A stretch of DNA of 64,000 nucleotides from Enterococcus asini ATCC 700915 (GTDB taxonomy: Bacteria > Bacillota > Bacilli > Lactobacillales > Enterococcaceae), in NCBI RefSeq assembly GCF_000407365.1, contig NZ_ASVU01000001.1, forward strand, positions 1,335,501 through 1,399,500, given 5' to 3'. Shown here piece by piece: positions 5,315 to 10,352 of the stretch. A program made the position numbers and the translations under genes. The notes under the pieces were generated by a model, which was given only the letters and a program-made list of their open reading frames with translations, did no database searches and was not told the DNA's origin. Within the stretch, counting starts at the first letter, position 1, and each line of letters opens with the position of its first letter.

Positions 5315-6283
5315 ATGCCCAGTATTAGACAAGAAATTTTAAGTGCCATTCAAAAATATGACCGGATTATCATCCACCGCCACATGCGTCCAGACCCGGA
5401 TGCTCTAGGTTCCCAAGTGGGCTTGGCGGAAGTGTTGCGGGCAAGTTTTCCCAAAAAAGAAATCTATCAAGTAGGGGGCCCGGTGGAAGGCTTGGACTAC
5501 TTGGCGGAGATGCAAGCAGTCACCGACGAGATGTACCAAGGTTCTTTGGTGATCGTCACGGATACCGCCAATTCCCCGCGCGTTTCCGACCAGCGCTACA
5601 ATCTAGGGGATTTGCTGATTAAAATCGACCATCATCCTAACGACGAGCCATACGGAGATTTGGTTTGGGTCAATACCCACGCTTCTAGCTGTAGTGAAAT
5701 GATTGCGGATTTGGCATTTTCCTTCCCGGATTTATTGAAAATGTCCAATGAGGCGGCCCGGCTGATTTATGCCGGTATCGTAGGAGACACCGGGCGCTTC
5801 TTGTACCCGGCGACCACTTCATACACCTTGGAAGTCGCTGGCAAATTGTTGACCTATGACTTTGATGCGGCTTTGTTAAACCGTCAGCTGCAACAGATTT
5901 CCCTTAAAGTTGCCCGCTTGTCTGGCTATGTGTACGAAAACATCTCCAGCGACAAAAACGGTGCGGCCCAAGTGATTTTGCCGAAAGAACGCTTAGACGA
6001 ATTCGGCGTGGTAGACTCGGAAACGGCGGCGATTGTGCCTTTGCCGGGAACCATTGACGAAATCTTGGCTTGGGCGATTTTCGTCCACCAACCAGAAGGC
6101 TATTACCGGGTGCGCCTACGCTCCAAAGGCCCGGTGATCAATACCATCGCCAAGCGCCACCATGGAGGCGGCCATCCTTTGGCCAGTGGCGCCAATGCCC
6201 GAGATTTGGCAGAAGTCCAAGAGATTTACCAAGAAATCCAAGAACTGTGCCGGGAGTACGTGGCTCAGGAAGGGGAAGAATAA
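5315..6283 (+). CDS. nrnA: DHH/DHHA1 phosphoesterase, NrnA-like
   Basis: The 322-residue protein has the DHH-family metal motifs in order: RHMRPDPDALGSQ near residue 23, DTAN near 90 and DHHPND near 108. The C-terminal DHHA1 domain carries GGGHPLASGA. NrnA degrades nanoRNA (oligoribonucleotides of 2-5 nt) and dephosphorylates 3',5'-adenosine phosphate; some homologues hydrolyse pApA derived from cyclic di-AMP. The ATG at 5315 follows GAGGGGTAGT. A strong terminator follows. It may share a transcript with the DRTGG/CBS gene 79 bases upstream, since I see no terminator between them. Confidence 0.9.
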   Translation: MPSIRQEILSAIQKYDRIIIHRHMRPDPDALGSQVGLAEVLRASFPKKEIYQVGGPVEGLDYLAEMQAVTDEMYQGSLVIVTDTANSPRVSDQRYNLGDLLIKIDHHPNDEPYGDLVWVNTHASSCSEMIADLAFSFPDLLKMSNEAARLIYAGIVGDTGRFLYPATTSYTLEVAGKLLTYDFDAALLNRQLQQISLKVARLSGYVYENISSDKNGAAQVILPKERLDEFGVVDSETAAIVPLPGTIDEILAWAIFVHQPEGYYRVRLRSKGPVINTIAKRHHGGGHPLASGANARDLAEVQEIYQEIQELCREYVAQEGEE

Positions 6284-6300
6284 AGAAATTGCTATGTGTG

Positions 6301-6338
6301 AAAACCGTCTGCCAGAATGCTGGGAGACGGTTTTTTTT
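6301..6338 (+). terminator. Intrinsic terminator after nrnA
   Basis: CCGTCT, an inner CCAG/CTGG stem, and AGACGG form a hairpin followed by eight T. Confidence 0.88.
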
Positions 6339-6371
6339 GTAGAAAGAAAGTAGAAAGAAAGTAGAAAGAAA
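6339..6371. repeat. Three perfect 11-bp tandem repeats
   Basis: GTAGAAAGAAA occurs three times head to tail at 6339, 6350 and 6361. The block sits between the nrnA terminator and the 40-bp operator-like array. It may be a replication-slippage product; no function is evident. Confidence 0.85.
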
Positions 6372-6381
6372 AGCGTGAGAG

Positions 6382-6519
6382 TTTCTAGCGTAAGGGATAA
6401 AACTGATGGAAACGTAATTAGTTTCCATTGTACTGGATAAAATTGCTTAAATAAGATTCTATTTCCATTATAGTGGACAAAGAAATTGGAAATCACTTAA
6501 ATTTCCAGTATACTGGAAA
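6382..6519 (+). promoter_or_regulatory. Array of four operator-like repeats phased at exactly 40 bp
   Basis: Related 16-bp boxes start at 6382, 6422, 6462 and 6502. They read TTTCTAGCGTAAGGGA, TTTCCATTGTACTGGA, TTTCCATTATAGTGGA and TTTCCAGTATACTGGA. The last extends to an 18-bp perfect palindrome, TTTCCAGTATACTGGAAA, which directly abuts the ribosome binding site of the ATPase gene. Similarity falls with distance from the gene, but the 40-bp period is exact, which would place every box on the same helix face. The likely reading is a multi-site operator for autoregulation by the ATPase or a partner; no promoter could be assigned with confidence. Confidence 0.7.
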
Positions 6520-6533
6520 TGGAGGTGAGGGCA

Positions 6534-7763
6534 ATGATTATTCGTAGCAACTATTTAAATGATGTGATTCCCTTTATTGATACGGAATTAATTAAGGTGA
6601 TGACAGGGGTCAGGCGATCCGGAAAATCCATGATGTTAACCATGATTCAGGAGTATTTGTTAGCAAAAGAAATTCGTCGTGATCAGTTCATTACCATGAA
6701 TTTTGAGGAATTGATTTTTGAACCCTATTTAGAATATCACGCGTTAAACGACTATCTAGAAGCACAAATCCAGCAAATCGAAGGGAAAGTCTATTTATTT
6801 TTGGATGAGATTCAAGAGGTTCAGCAATTTGAAAAAGTAATTAATTCACTGCGAGCGACTTTTCAAGAGCGAGTGGATATTTACATCACGGGATCTAATG
6901 CGAAACTGCTTTCTGGCGAATTGGCAACTTTGCTTGGTGGGCGTTATGTTCAGTTTGAAATTTACCCTTTCAAATTTTCGGAATATGTTCAAGGGCGAAG
7001 GAGTGTGGCAGATGAGCGCAGCAATCAGGAGCTGTTTCAAGCGTATTTACTGGAAGGCGGCATGCCTTTTTTGGTGGCTCAAAATATGCAATACCGAGAT
7101 CGGGTCAATTATTTGGCCGACGTGTATAATTCGATTATCTTGAAGGATATCATTGAACGGGAAAGTATCCGTGATCCAGAACTATTGCGGCGATTATTGA
7201 GCTATGTACTTGGAAATATTGGCCGGACTTTTTCTGCAAATTCGGTAGTGAAATATTTGAAGAATGAGGGAGTCAACGCTTCTGTCACTACTGTTTTGAA
7301 CTATTTGAGTTTTGCAGTAGACGCCTATGCGATTATTCCACTGCGCCGCTACGACATTCAAGGTAAGAGATTTTTGGGTTCCCAGGAAAAGTATTACGTG
7401 GTAGATCACGGTTTGCGTCAAGCGATTATCGGTCGAAATGAGGAAGATGTGGAGCTGATTTTGGAGAATATTGTGTTGTTAGAATTGATGGCACGGGGCT
7501 ATGAAGTTTCAGTAGGAAAAACGAATCAATATGAGGTGGATTTCATTGCTGAACGTAAGGGGGCTACAGGTATTAATCGAAAGTATGTGCAGGTGAGCTA
7601 TCTCTTAGCATCTGCGGAAACCCGAATGAGGGAATTTAGACCTTTGAAAGAAATCCAGGACAACTACGAGAAGCTTTTGCTAACGTTAGATTTGTTTACC
7701 AGCGATGCGGAAGGAATCCGTCATCGGAATTTGGTGGAATGGCTGCTAGACGAAAATTGGTGA
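6534..7763 (+). CDS. AAA_14/DUF4143 ATP-binding protein
   Basis: The 409-residue protein starts with an AAA+ domain carrying a Walker A (TGVRRSGKS, near residue 25) and a Walker B (YLFLDEIQEV, near 85). A sensor-like ITGSNAKLLSG follows. A winged-helix-like middle (SANSVVKYLKNEGVNASVTTVLNYL) and a C-terminal DUF4143 domain with restriction-endonuclease-like elements (ENIVLLELMARGYEV, VDFIAE, KYVQVSY) complete the family layout. These ATPases are common, often acquired, and of unknown role. The ATG at 6534 follows GGAGGTGAGGGCA; an ATG at 6519 overlaps the palindrome and lacks a site. It is monocistronic, and the operator-like array suggests tight control. Confidence 0.88.
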   Translation: MIIRSNYLNDVIPFIDTELIKVMTGVRRSGKSMMLTMIQEYLLAKEIRRDQFITMNFEELIFEPYLEYHALNDYLEAQIQQIEGKVYLFLDEIQEVQQFEKVINSLRATFQERVDIYITGSNAKLLSGELATLLGGRYVQFEIYPFKFSEYVQGRRSVADERSNQELFQAYLLEGGMPFLVAQNMQYRDRVNYLADVYNSIILKDIIERESIRDPELLRRLLSYVLGNIGRTFSANSVVKYLKNEGVNASVTTVLNYLSFAVDAYAIIPLRRYDIQGKRFLGSQEKYYVVDHGLRQAIIGRNEEDVELILENIVLLELMARGYEVSVGKTNQYEVDFIAERKGATGINRKYVQVSYLLASAETRMREFRPLKEIQDNYEKLLLTLDLFTSDAEGIRHRNLVEWLLDENW

Positions 7764-7928: not shown

Positions 7929-8873
7929 ATGACGATTGTTCAGTTGCATTATTTGATTACCATTGCCAGCTGTGGTTCGTTAAGCGGAGCCGCCGAGACC
8001 TTGTACGTGTCTCAGCCAACGATTTCCACGGCGATCAAGGAATTGGAAAGTGAGCTTTCTTTGACCATTTTTCACCGGCATTCCAAAGGGGTGACGCTGA
8101 CTCCTGAGGGTGCGGATTTTTTGCGCAGCGCCAAGGAACTCTACTTGCAGTATGAGGACTTGATGTTGGCTTACAAGGACGAGGGTACCCGGAAGCAAAA
8201 GTTTGCGGTCTCCATGCAGCATTATTCCTTTGCGGTAAAGGCCTTTGTGGAGTTGGCTAAGTCCTTTGATATGTCCCGCTACGAGTTTGCCATTCGGGAG
8301 ACTCAGACCAGAGAAGTCATTAGCGATGTGCGGGATTTAAAGAGTGAGCTAGGGATTTTGTATTTGTCCGAGGCCAATCACAAGCCTATGAAAAAGCTGT
8401 TGCAAAGCGCCAATCTGCGCTTTTATCCATTGATTCAATGCCAGGCGTACGTCTATTTGTGGCGGGAGCATCCTTTAGCTCAGCAGCCGGCGATTTCCTT
8501 TGAGGAGTTGGCGGACTATCCTTGTTTGGCCTTCGAGCAAGGGGATGACAGTGCGTTTTATTTGGCGGAGGAGATTTTGTCCACCAACGAGTATCCCCAG
8601 ATTATTCGGGCCAATGATCGGGCCACCATGTTGAATTTGATGATTGGACTAAACGGCTACACCTTGTGTTCCGGGATTATTTCTCAGGAGTTAAATGGCT
8701 CCGAATATGTGGCGATTCCCTTTGCGGAAAGTCCTGACTGCCCCAACAGCACCATGGAAATCGGTTATATTATGCGGGAGAATATGCAACTGAGCCAAAT
8801 GGGTAAACGTTTTTTGACGGCATTGCGGTCGGAGTTGGGCCTTGAACCAGTAAAAGAGACAATCGGGGAATGA
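7929..8873 (+). CDS. LysR-family transcriptional regulator
   Basis: The 314-residue protein has an N-terminal LysR helix-turn-helix (LHYLITIASCGSLSGAAETLYVSQPTISTAIKELE). The rest is a periplasmic-binding-protein-like effector domain to about residue 300. It is monocistronic, ends at a strong terminator, and lies just upstream of metY on the same strand. In Lactobacillales LysR proteins often control sulfur amino acid genes, so metY is a plausible target, but that is inference from position. The start follows GGGGGAAAGAAG. Confidence 0.9.
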   Translation: MTIVQLHYLITIASCGSLSGAAETLYVSQPTISTAIKELESELSLTIFHRHSKGVTLTPEGADFLRSAKELYLQYEDLMLAYKDEGTRKQKFAVSMQHYSFAVKAFVELAKSFDMSRYEFAIRETQTREVISDVRDLKSELGILYLSEANHKPMKKLLQSANLRFYPLIQCQAYVYLWREHPLAQQPAISFEELADYPCLAFEQGDDSAFYLAEEILSTNEYPQIIRANDRATMLNLMIGLNGYTLCSGIISQELNGSEYVAIPFAESPDCPNSTMEIGYIMRENMQLSQMGKRFLTALRSELGLEPVKETIGE

Positions 8874-9044: not shown

Positions 9045-10352
9045 ATGACCAAAGAAGATTTCAGTAATTGGGGCTTTGAAACCCGCCAACTTCACGTAGG
9101 ACAAGAAACACCGGATGCGGCCACCGGTGCCAGAGCAGTCCCGATTTATGCCTCTAGTTCCTTTGTATTTGATAACACCCAGCACGCTGCTGACCGCTTT
9201 GGCTTACGGGATGCGGGAAATATTTACGGCCGCTTGACCAATCCCACCCAGGAAGTCTTTGAAGCCCGGATTGCTTCTTTGGAAGGCGGGGTTTCCGCAC
9301 TAGCCTTGGCCTCTGGAGCCGCGGCGGTAAGCTATACCATCGAAGCCTTAGCGAAATCTGGGGAACACATTGTGGCGGCTAAGACGATTTACGGGGGCAC
9401 GTACAACCTCTTAGCCCACACCTTGCCGTTAAAAAATAACGTAACCATCACTTTTGCCGACCCGGAACCCGCTGCTTTGGAAGCCGCCATTCAGGACAAC
9501 ACCAAAGCGATTTTCATCGAAAGTTTGGGCAATCCCCACTCCAATGTGGCGGATATTGAGGCAATTGCCGCAGTGGCTCACAAATATCAGATTCCCCTAG
9601 TTGTGGACTCCACCTTTGCGACGCCGTATTTATTGCGACCTTTGGAATACGGAGCGGACATCGTGGTTCACTCGGCGACGAAATTCATCGGCGGTCACGG
9701 CACGGCTATCGGGGGCGTGATTGTGGACGGGGGCCATTTCGACTGGAATGCTAGTGGCAAGTACCCTTGGTTAACCGAGCCAAATCCCAGCTACCATGGA
9801 GTTTCCTTCACCCAAGCGGCCGGGGCGGCGGCTTTTGTTACTTACATTCGCGCTGTACTTTTGCGAGATACCGGCGCTACATTGTCCCCATTTCATGCCT
9901 TTTTATTCCTGCAAGGTTTGGAAACTTTGTCTTTACGGGTGGAGCGCCATGTGGCAAACGCTTTGCAAGTGGTGGACTTTTTGGCCAAGCATCCCCAAGT
10001 GGAAGCCGTGCATCACCCATCACTGGCCACAGAGACCAGTCACGGGCTTTATCAGAAATACTTCCCACAAGGCGGCGGCTCGATTTTCACCTTTGAAATC
10101 AAAGGCGACCAAGCAGACGCCCAAGAATTCATCGACAATTTGGAAATCTTTTCCCTTTTGGCCAATGTGGCAGACGTGAAATCTTTGGTGATTCACCCGG
10201 CCACCACCACCCATAGCCAGTCCACGCCGGAAGAACTAGCCGAACAAGGCATCAAGCCTAATACCATTCGCCTGTCCGTGGGCTTGGAGCGGGTAGAAGA
10301 CTTGTTGGTGGCTTTGGAACGAGCTTTTGCAAAAGTGGGGAGTGGGGTGTAG
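9045..10352 (+). CDS. metY: O-acetylhomoserine/O-acetylserine sulfhydrylase
   Basis: The 435-residue protein belongs to the Cys/Met-metabolism PLP enzymes. It has the N-terminal FETRQLHVGQ, NIYGRLTNPTQEVFE, and the PLP lysine in VVHSATKFIGGHG at about residue 213. The C-terminal NTIRLSVGLERVEDL is also typical. Length and sequence fit MetY, which makes homocysteine from O-acetylhomoserine and sulfide, rather than the shorter cystathionine gamma-synthases. A GAGGAGG site precedes the ATG. It has its own promoter and terminator; the neighbouring LysR gene may control it. Confidence 0.88.
   Translation: MTKEDFSNWGFETRQLHVGQETPDAATGARAVPIYASSSFVFDNTQHAADRFGLRDAGNIYGRLTNPTQEVFEARIASLEGGVSALALASGAAAVSYTIEALAKSGEHIVAAKTIYGGTYNLLAHTLPLKNNVTITFADPEPAALEAAIQDNTKAIFIESLGNPHSNVADIEAIAAVAHKYQIPLVVDSTFATPYLLRPLEYGADIVVHSATKFIGGHGTAIGGVIVDGGHFDWNASGKYPWLTEPNPSYHGVSFTQAAGAAAFVTYIRAVLLRDTGATLSPFHAFLFLQGLETLSLRVERHVANALQVVDFLAKHPQVEAVHHPSLATETSHGLYQKYFPQGGGSIFTFEIKGDQADAQEFIDNLEIFSLLANVADVKSLVIHPATTTHSQSTPEELAEQGIKPNTIRLSVGLERVEDLLVALERAFAKVGSGV

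Follow-up and report, generated by a model that had tools for sequence, protein, structure and literature searches.

The AAA_14-DUF4143 ATPase gene in the window (the whole 64,000-nucleotide stretch of Enterococcus asini ATCC 700915 DNA that was analyzed) is preceded by four related 18-bp boxes, each beginning exactly 40 bp after the previous one. Comparison with homologous loci suggests, with a probability of about 0.8, that this array is an autoregulatory operator, that is, that the ATPase binds the array in its own promoter and probably represses its own gene. Statistical analyses supported the existence of the array, the conservation of its spacing in the family, its placement on the promoter at many loci, and the joint variation of the boxes with the recognition helix of the ATPase.

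The coordinates of the boxes and of the surrounding features are listed in Table 1, in which mismatches to the box consensus, TTTCCANTNTACTGGAAA, were scored over its 16 specified bases. At a shift of 40, box 1 and box 2 matched at 20 of 29 positions, while the nine other shifts between 36 and 45 gave at most 9 of 29; a match of 20 was reached by none of 2000 shuffles. The three-copy statistic of the array was 30, as compared with a shuffle maximum of 25 (0 of 2000). A search of the whole 2.57-Mb genome with the consensus, allowing up to three mismatches, gave 56 strand-matches versus 57 for a reversed-pattern control; six of the 56 were boxes 2-4 of the array, and three places outside the array reached two mismatches. 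The window array is real and local, and is not a dispersed repeat. These results bore out the first-pass annotation of this DNA, which had described four operator-like boxes at a strict 40-bp period ahead of an AAA_14 gene, the nearest of them a perfect 18-bp palindrome adjoining the ribosome site. Repeats at many unrelated loci of the genome, which would have counted against that description, were not seen, the motif being at background level.

The predicted promoter of the ATPase gene is sigma-70-like. A terminator-like hairpin, which was absent from the output of the consensus scan, separates the upstream DHH gene from this predicted promoter. An 11-bp near-tandem repeat of the GTAGAAAGAAA type lies at 6338-6367, between the hairpin and the array. 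An RNA-based explanation of the array was disfavored, because 6250-6560 gave no Rfam match and the predicted transcript start is downstream of most of the array. The ATPase gene probably starts at the ATG at 6534 and not at 6519, since the alignments of 15 of the 24 other homologues in the family set and of five of the eight in the GTDB set begin at residue 5 or 6 of the longer ORF, and since the Shine-Dalgarno-like site fits the start at 6534.

Table 1. Features of the ATPase locus, in window coordinates
Feature	Position	Strand	Basis or remark
Terminator-like hairpin and T run, 3' of the upstream DHH gene	6301..6341	+	inverted repeat 6301-6315/6320-6334, 93% complementary
Box 1 (degenerate), TTTCTAGCGTAAGGGATA	6382..6399	+	5/16 mismatches to consensus
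Box 2, TTTCCATTGTACTGGATA	6422..6439	+	1 mismatch
Box 3, TTTCCATTATAGTGGACA	6462..6479	+	2 mismatches
-35-like hexamer TTGGAA	6486..6491	+	promoter scan, consensus match only
Box 4, TTTCCAGTATACTGGAAA	6502..6519	+	perfect 18-bp palindrome over the -10; 0 mismatches, both strands
-10-like hexamer TATACT, within box 4, 17-bp spacer	6509..6514	+	promoter scan
Shine-Dalgarno-like site, GGAGGTGA	6521..6528	+	sequence
AAA_14-DUF4143 ATPase (PADLOC PDC-S01), 409 aa	6534..7763	+	Pfam and PADLOC profile matches
Putative winged HTH: helix 235-244, recognition helix 251-263, wing strands 267-274 and 279-289	7236..7400	+	AlphaFold2 model
Codon of T252, proposed specificity residue	7287..7289	+	top-ranked column in covariation tests
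LysR-family gene	7929-8873		starts 165 bp downstream of the ATPase gene

With the longer ORF as query, the ATPase matched Pfam AAA_14 (E 1.1e-30, 106.7 bits versus a gathering cut-off of 27) and DUF4143 (E 1.5e-17, 64.3 bits versus a gathering cut-off of 28.1), and PADLOC model PDLC04787 (PDC-S01) matched residues 1-407 (E 2.1e-149). We take these PDC-S01 (AAA_14/DUF4143) proteins to be the group COG1373. The NCBIfam scan gave no match, the PHROGs scan gave two weak partial matches, a single-protein scan of viral contigs gave no relative, and four matches from a phmmer search against solved structures (E 0.055-0.61) were rejected as apparently unrelated. An earlier statement that the ATPase family lacks any known role needs some qualification, as PADLOC lists the family as phage-defence candidate PDC-S01. 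In the passages available, PDC-S01 is described as one of the phage-defence candidates, with validation pending for most PDCs, and is ranked fourth by frequency among the defence types of prokaryotes (PMC12988326); in rumen genomes it is reported to be the individual locus met most often (PMC13356809). The window protein is a full-length match to PDC-S01, whereas the promoter array is a feature noted here and not in those passages, which contain no mention of an operator or of regulation of PDC-S01; the part of PMC4406477 consulted likewise contains no mention of an operator array. No account of how PDC-S01 works was found in the passages of the literature covered, preprints being outside it.

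A structural model of the ATPase was obtained with AlphaFold2 (mean pLDDT 88.5, pTM 0.87) from a nine-sequence alignment of the window protein and the GTDB-set loci. In our reading of this model, residues 235-289 would form a winged HTH behind an AAA+ core, an order of domains that may resemble that of STAND/SSO1545-like ATPases (Z 19.0, on a predicted model). The best VIA-align matches were SSO1545 (2fna; Z 19.0, rmsd 2.9, 266 aligned) and PABY2304 (2qen; Z 18.9, rmsd 3.1, 269 aligned), and they span residues 1-300, the part beyond about residue 304 being barely tested. The likeness to these two archaeal ATPases is in the fold, the identity being 18% and 15%, respectively. NLR and CED-4 proteins ranked after them, and the Foldseek list was headed by Cdc6/Orc1.

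The homologues came from GTDB genomes (8 loci), from the family (25 matches, including the window's own, in 21 of 105 genomes), from the phylum (in 46 of 398 genomes), and from two orders (in 10 of 25 and 78 of 189 genomes). Further loci were fetched from the phylum search (30) and from the 189-genome order (80), and 20 more of the latter were placed in the test set described below. After 10 loci that were truncated, had no start or had a short upstream region and 8 duplicates were dropped, 202 of 220 loci were kept, and 111 loci below 70% identity formed a non-redundant set; the sampling was mostly within one phylum.

With no motif assumed, the best 18-base self-match shift was 39 or 40 in 38.2 of the 111 non-redundant loci and 41 in 7.5 more, the average for any other shift being about 1. 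In controls drawn from the same loci, shifts of 39 or 40 were found in 2.8 of 111 coding and 2.9 of 89 far-upstream regions. Among loci below 50% identity they were found in 12.0 of 38, versus 0.3 of 38 coding and 1.5 of 32 far-upstream regions. The coding control has a self-match peak of its own at shift 24 (18.9 of 111).

A joint detector, which scores repeat and palindrome together and for which p<0.02 means that at most 1 of 100 shuffles reached the score, identified arrays at this level in 108 of the 202 homologues and 54 of the 111 non-redundant loci, whereas the controls gave 2 of 111 (coding) and 0 of 87 (far upstream); no array was detected at p<0.02 in the remaining 94 homologues. 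When it was applied to 40 regions upstream of other genes in the window, two passed at p<0.02 and three at p<=0.05; the two, at 9045 and 38269, amount to about twice the chance rate. By eye, no clear array was seen in archaeal L321 or in Acinetobacter plasmid L324 and L325 (9 of 14 fetched plasmid regions viewed), and these three were also not among the loci called by the detector.

The 54 arrays contained two boxes in 31 cases, three in 19, four in 3 and six in 1, and steps of 38, 39, 40, 41 and 42 bp occurred 8, 23, 39, 10 and 3 times, respectively, in box calling that allows 38-42 bp only and undercounts loci with other pitches. In a freer scan (0 of 100 shuffles) the best shifts were 51 bp in L007, 32 in L009, 47 in L052, 74 in L102, 75 in L103 and 64 in L105; the repeats of L007, L009, L102, L103 and L105, which are more distant homologues, may be variant arrays. 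Box sequences vary by clade, examples being TTTCCAGTATACTGGAAA, TTTGAAGTTAACTTCAAA, ATTCGAATTAATTCGAAT, TTTGCATTACAATGCAAA, TTTGGATTATATTCCAAA and TTTATAGTATACTATAAA. The pitch, mostly 39-41 bp, is conserved across the family, and the box sequence is not. Of the check on homologues that had been proposed earlier, the expectation of a conserved spacing of about 40 bp thus held, and the expectation that the 16-bp motif itself would be conserved failed, as the boxes differ; a score for this motif upstream of homologues would have read as a refutation, because it is the spacing that is conserved.

That the array is a functionless product of chance or of mutational tandem duplication is so improbable that it can almost be dismissed. 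The upstream region is short and AT-rich and holds another simple repeat (6338-6367), which would suit such an origin, but the spacing is kept across divergent boxes, none of the 2000 shuffles equaled the window array, and the boxes vary jointly with the recognition helix.

Promoter predictions in the homologous loci pointed to transcription. In 23 of the 57 non-redundant loci with a promoter call, the center of the -10 element lay at -2 to +1 bp relative to a box dyad, and in 15 of the 57 it was exactly +1 from the nearest dyad, as in the window. Sliding the dyads by 2-38 bp gave a mean of 3.9 loci and a maximum of 19 in place of the 23 observed. The best promoter call was off any box dyad in 34 of the 57 loci. 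Negative autoregulation would be expected, because binding would often compete with RNA polymerase at the -10 element. Activation by an ATPase bound to the array is quite improbable by comparison: the upstream boxes lie at activator-type positions, and IniR, whose ATPase domain resembles SSO1545, is described in the part of PMC5760070 consulted as binding and inducing a promoter, but a proximal box that covers the -10 element and adjoins the ribosome site suits repression.

The relationship between boxes and protein was analyzed with 113 of the 120 arrays detected at p<=0.05, seven having been dropped for low palindromicity. The boxes have a common TTT...AAA frame, and positions 4-5 inside it are hypervariable: these carried 0.02-0.03 bit, while half-site positions 1-3 and 8 were mostly T (0.51-0.95 bit). 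In a partial Mantel analysis of 380 protein columns, T252 was the best predictor of similarity at box positions 4-6 beyond overall identity (r = 0.207; next column, 0.148; maximum of 500 permutations, 0.047). According to the AlphaFold2 model, residue 252 is the second residue of the recognition helix in the ATPase's own putative winged HTH. It is the 22nd most variable of 390 columns, and the neighboring T253 and Y257 are almost invariant.

Residue 252 also ranked first of 372, 363 and 358 columns (z 16.1, 11.5 and 11.5) when boxes were permuted inside protein clusters at three cuts, with 300 permutations and with the 88 of 113 loci that remained after an 85% identity filter. The top eight columns in this stratified test included S250 at two of the three cuts and N256 at one. 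Some phylogenetic signal remains, because columns outside the HTH, namely V181, Y333 and S326 at all three cuts and E303 at two, were likewise among the top eight and exceeded all 300 permutations. Mutual information with residue 252, calculated for 83 of the 113 loci after an 80% identity filter and with phylogeny not controlled, was highest for box positions 4 (z 9.8) and 5 (z 6.7); z was 0.2, 1.7 and 1.2 for positions 1-3, and 3.3, 2.9, 1.4 and 4.1 for positions 6-9.

An apparent code relates residue 252 to box positions 4-5, with T corresponding to CC, K to GG, H to GA, R to GC or AC, E to CA, D to CG or AG, N to TC, A and I to AT, and P to AA. This code was fixed before new loci were fetched. 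The plan for the test set was a new order outside the training families, but those orders gave too few loci, and the actual set, in a departure from the noted plan, added loci of the training order, viral contigs and plasmids. A few new homologues came from the class of G119 and none from the order of G295 or the class of G134. Three of 82 rows were dropped, and 37 of the 79 others passed the identity filters (<80% to the training loci and to each other); 19 of the 37 had arrays (p<=0.05), 16 with a coded residue and three with a residue outside the code. The prediction was exact in 6 of 16 loci, as compared with 1.57 expected by permutation (P=0.0006), and at position 4 alone it was correct in 11 of 16 (5.0 expected, P=0.0009). 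Without the training-order loci, 4 of 12 were exact (1.00 expected, P=0.008), and below 65% identity to the training loci, 2 of 6 (0.49 expected, P=0.06). The code is partial and context-dependent, because all three test loci of the E class were missed.

Paralogues within one genome provided a comparison in which the host is held constant. Among pairs below 60% identity, box similarity was 0.291 for paralogues of the same genome (46 pairs), 0.281 for pairs from different genomes with different residues 252 (5589 pairs), and 0.415 for pairs from different genomes sharing residue 252 (461 pairs). In genome G051, one gene has a TTTCCA box and another a TTTGAA box, each common to protein relatives elsewhere. 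Box sequence thus appears to go with residue 252 of the ATPase and not with the host. Genome G682 has nine matches to the ATPase; eight of these were fetched, and the half-sites differ among the three that have arrays. This genome is a natural test bed for orthogonal operators.

Control of the ATPase gene by a separate host transcription factor that binds the array is very unlikely on these comparisons. In its favor, an operator that overlaps a -10 element usually has a dedicated repressor, RptR represses a defence island from operators on the -10 element (PMC12255303, in the passages available), and the LysR-family gene 165 bp downstream would be a candidate. On the other hand, paralogues in one genome differ in their boxes, the boxes track residue 252, and the motif does not exceed background in the rest of the genome. 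Moreover, no match to the LysR gene was found in the fetched flanks of homologue loci L027, L002, L003 and L004 (the flank of L004 has only 38 bases downstream), and L027, L002 and L003 have the same box type. The first-pass annotation had named the ATPase as one option for the regulator; the ATPase itself is now the most likely one, which makes that reading incomplete on this point.

In the proposed mechanism of autoregulation, each 18-bp palindrome would be bound by two ATPase protomers, with one winged-HTH recognition helix on each half-site. Box positions 4-6 would be read by residue 252, probably together with residues 250 and 256, with the TTT/AAA ends and the central TA as a frame shared by the boxes. 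Copies 39-41 bp apart could be occupied jointly by several dimers or by a single AAA+ oligomer, and an ATPase on the nearest box would block its own promoter until it is released, e.g. during infection or when engaged elsewhere. Direct binding, the dimeric or oligomeric state, the sign of regulation, release and the inducing signal are all steps that we infer.

The boxes had previously been thought to lie on one face of the helix. At 10.5 bp per turn, however, 40 bp corresponds to about 3.8 turns, so that successive boxes are rotated by about 70 degrees, and the same holds over the range of 39-41 bp (about 3.7-3.9 turns). This rotation may imply a wrapped or spiral assembly of the ATPase, in keeping with its AAA+ fold. 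An alternative that overlaps with autoregulation, and that we consider unlikely as the principal role, is that the array is mainly an iteron- or parS-like site for assembly or loading of the ATPase for its effector function, with regulation secondary. The rigid pitch, the presence of two to six boxes per array, and the resemblance of the AAA+ fold to Cdc6/Orc1 initiators and STAND proteins would agree with such a site, but a -10 element that carries a box, as found in 23 of the 57 loci, points to transcription, and in 31 of the 54 arrays no more than two boxes were detected.

An autoregulatory operator would resemble autoregulated toxin-antitoxin operons and AbiEi-type antitoxins, in which the promoter of the module is repressed by one of the module's own products. 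AbiEi-type antitoxins have a winged HTH. The ATPase differs in that the putative DNA-reading domain is fused to the ATPase and in that no partner gene was identified. The closest documented analogue found was RptR, which, according to the passages available, represses its native promoter through several operator repeats over the -10 element of a defence promoter (PMC12255303). RptR is a small dedicated repressor, and its 9-bp repeats contain a 6-bp palindrome, TAGCTA, that is conserved across genomes (PMC12255303), whereas here the presumed effector itself is proposed to bind, the boxes are 18 bp long at a 40-bp pitch, and their sequence is hypervariable. Relative to known autoregulatory arrays, the new elements would be a presumed effector ATPase as reader, a pitch that is fixed, and an address that is hypervariable and can be decoded in part. 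Regulation of an AAA_14/DUF4143 gene is hinted at in one published case, the Thermus gene TT_P0211, which, in the part of PMC4406477 consulted, rose 6.6-fold with plasmid DNA in a strain with Argonaute; in a strain without Argonaute no gene changed significantly by more than 4-fold (PMC4406477).

The C-terminal domain of the ATPase is PD-(D/E)XK-like. E334, D336 and Q353 are kept in 199, 196 and 198 of the 202 homologues, respectively, and the lysine column (residue S355) is A, S, T or C in 197 and K in none. An active PD-(D/E)XK nuclease needs the catalytic lysine of the (D/E/Q)xK motif. Cutting by this domain is doubtful, because the usual lysine position is never K in the 202 homologues; a relocated lysine is possible.

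A wider reading, which we put forward tentatively and with the odds clearly against it, is that PDC-S01-type ATPases are self-addressed modules in which the recognition residue and the array diversify together. The 39-41 bp pitch would nucleate an AAA+ spiral on the DNA, and the spiral would both silence the gene and hold the protein in reserve; diversion of the protein by a phage or plasmid would then lead at once to derepression; the lysine-less nuclease-like domain would handle or sense DNA rather than cut it. If true, many paralogues could share one cell without cross-regulation. Apart from this wider reading, the array gives a testable handle, as a predicted binding site for many PDC-S01 members: residue 252 should switch specificity, and a promoter reporter should reveal the inducer of PDC-S01.

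The ATPase gene lies between a DHH phosphoesterase gene upstream and the LysR-family gene downstream, neighboring ORFs being listed only from 80 aa. The DHH gene is present in nine of the ten congeneric genomes searched, the window genome included, and in the other eight of these no ATPase was found within 1.5 kb on either side of it. An ATPase copy with 78% identity occurs in another genus at a different site. We infer that the ATPase gene is accessory and moves together with its promoter array. In the plasmid search, 171 of the 222 records with a homologue were from Acinetobacter, and a Fic-family gene was present beside the homologue in Ilyobacter and Moraxella plasmid records.
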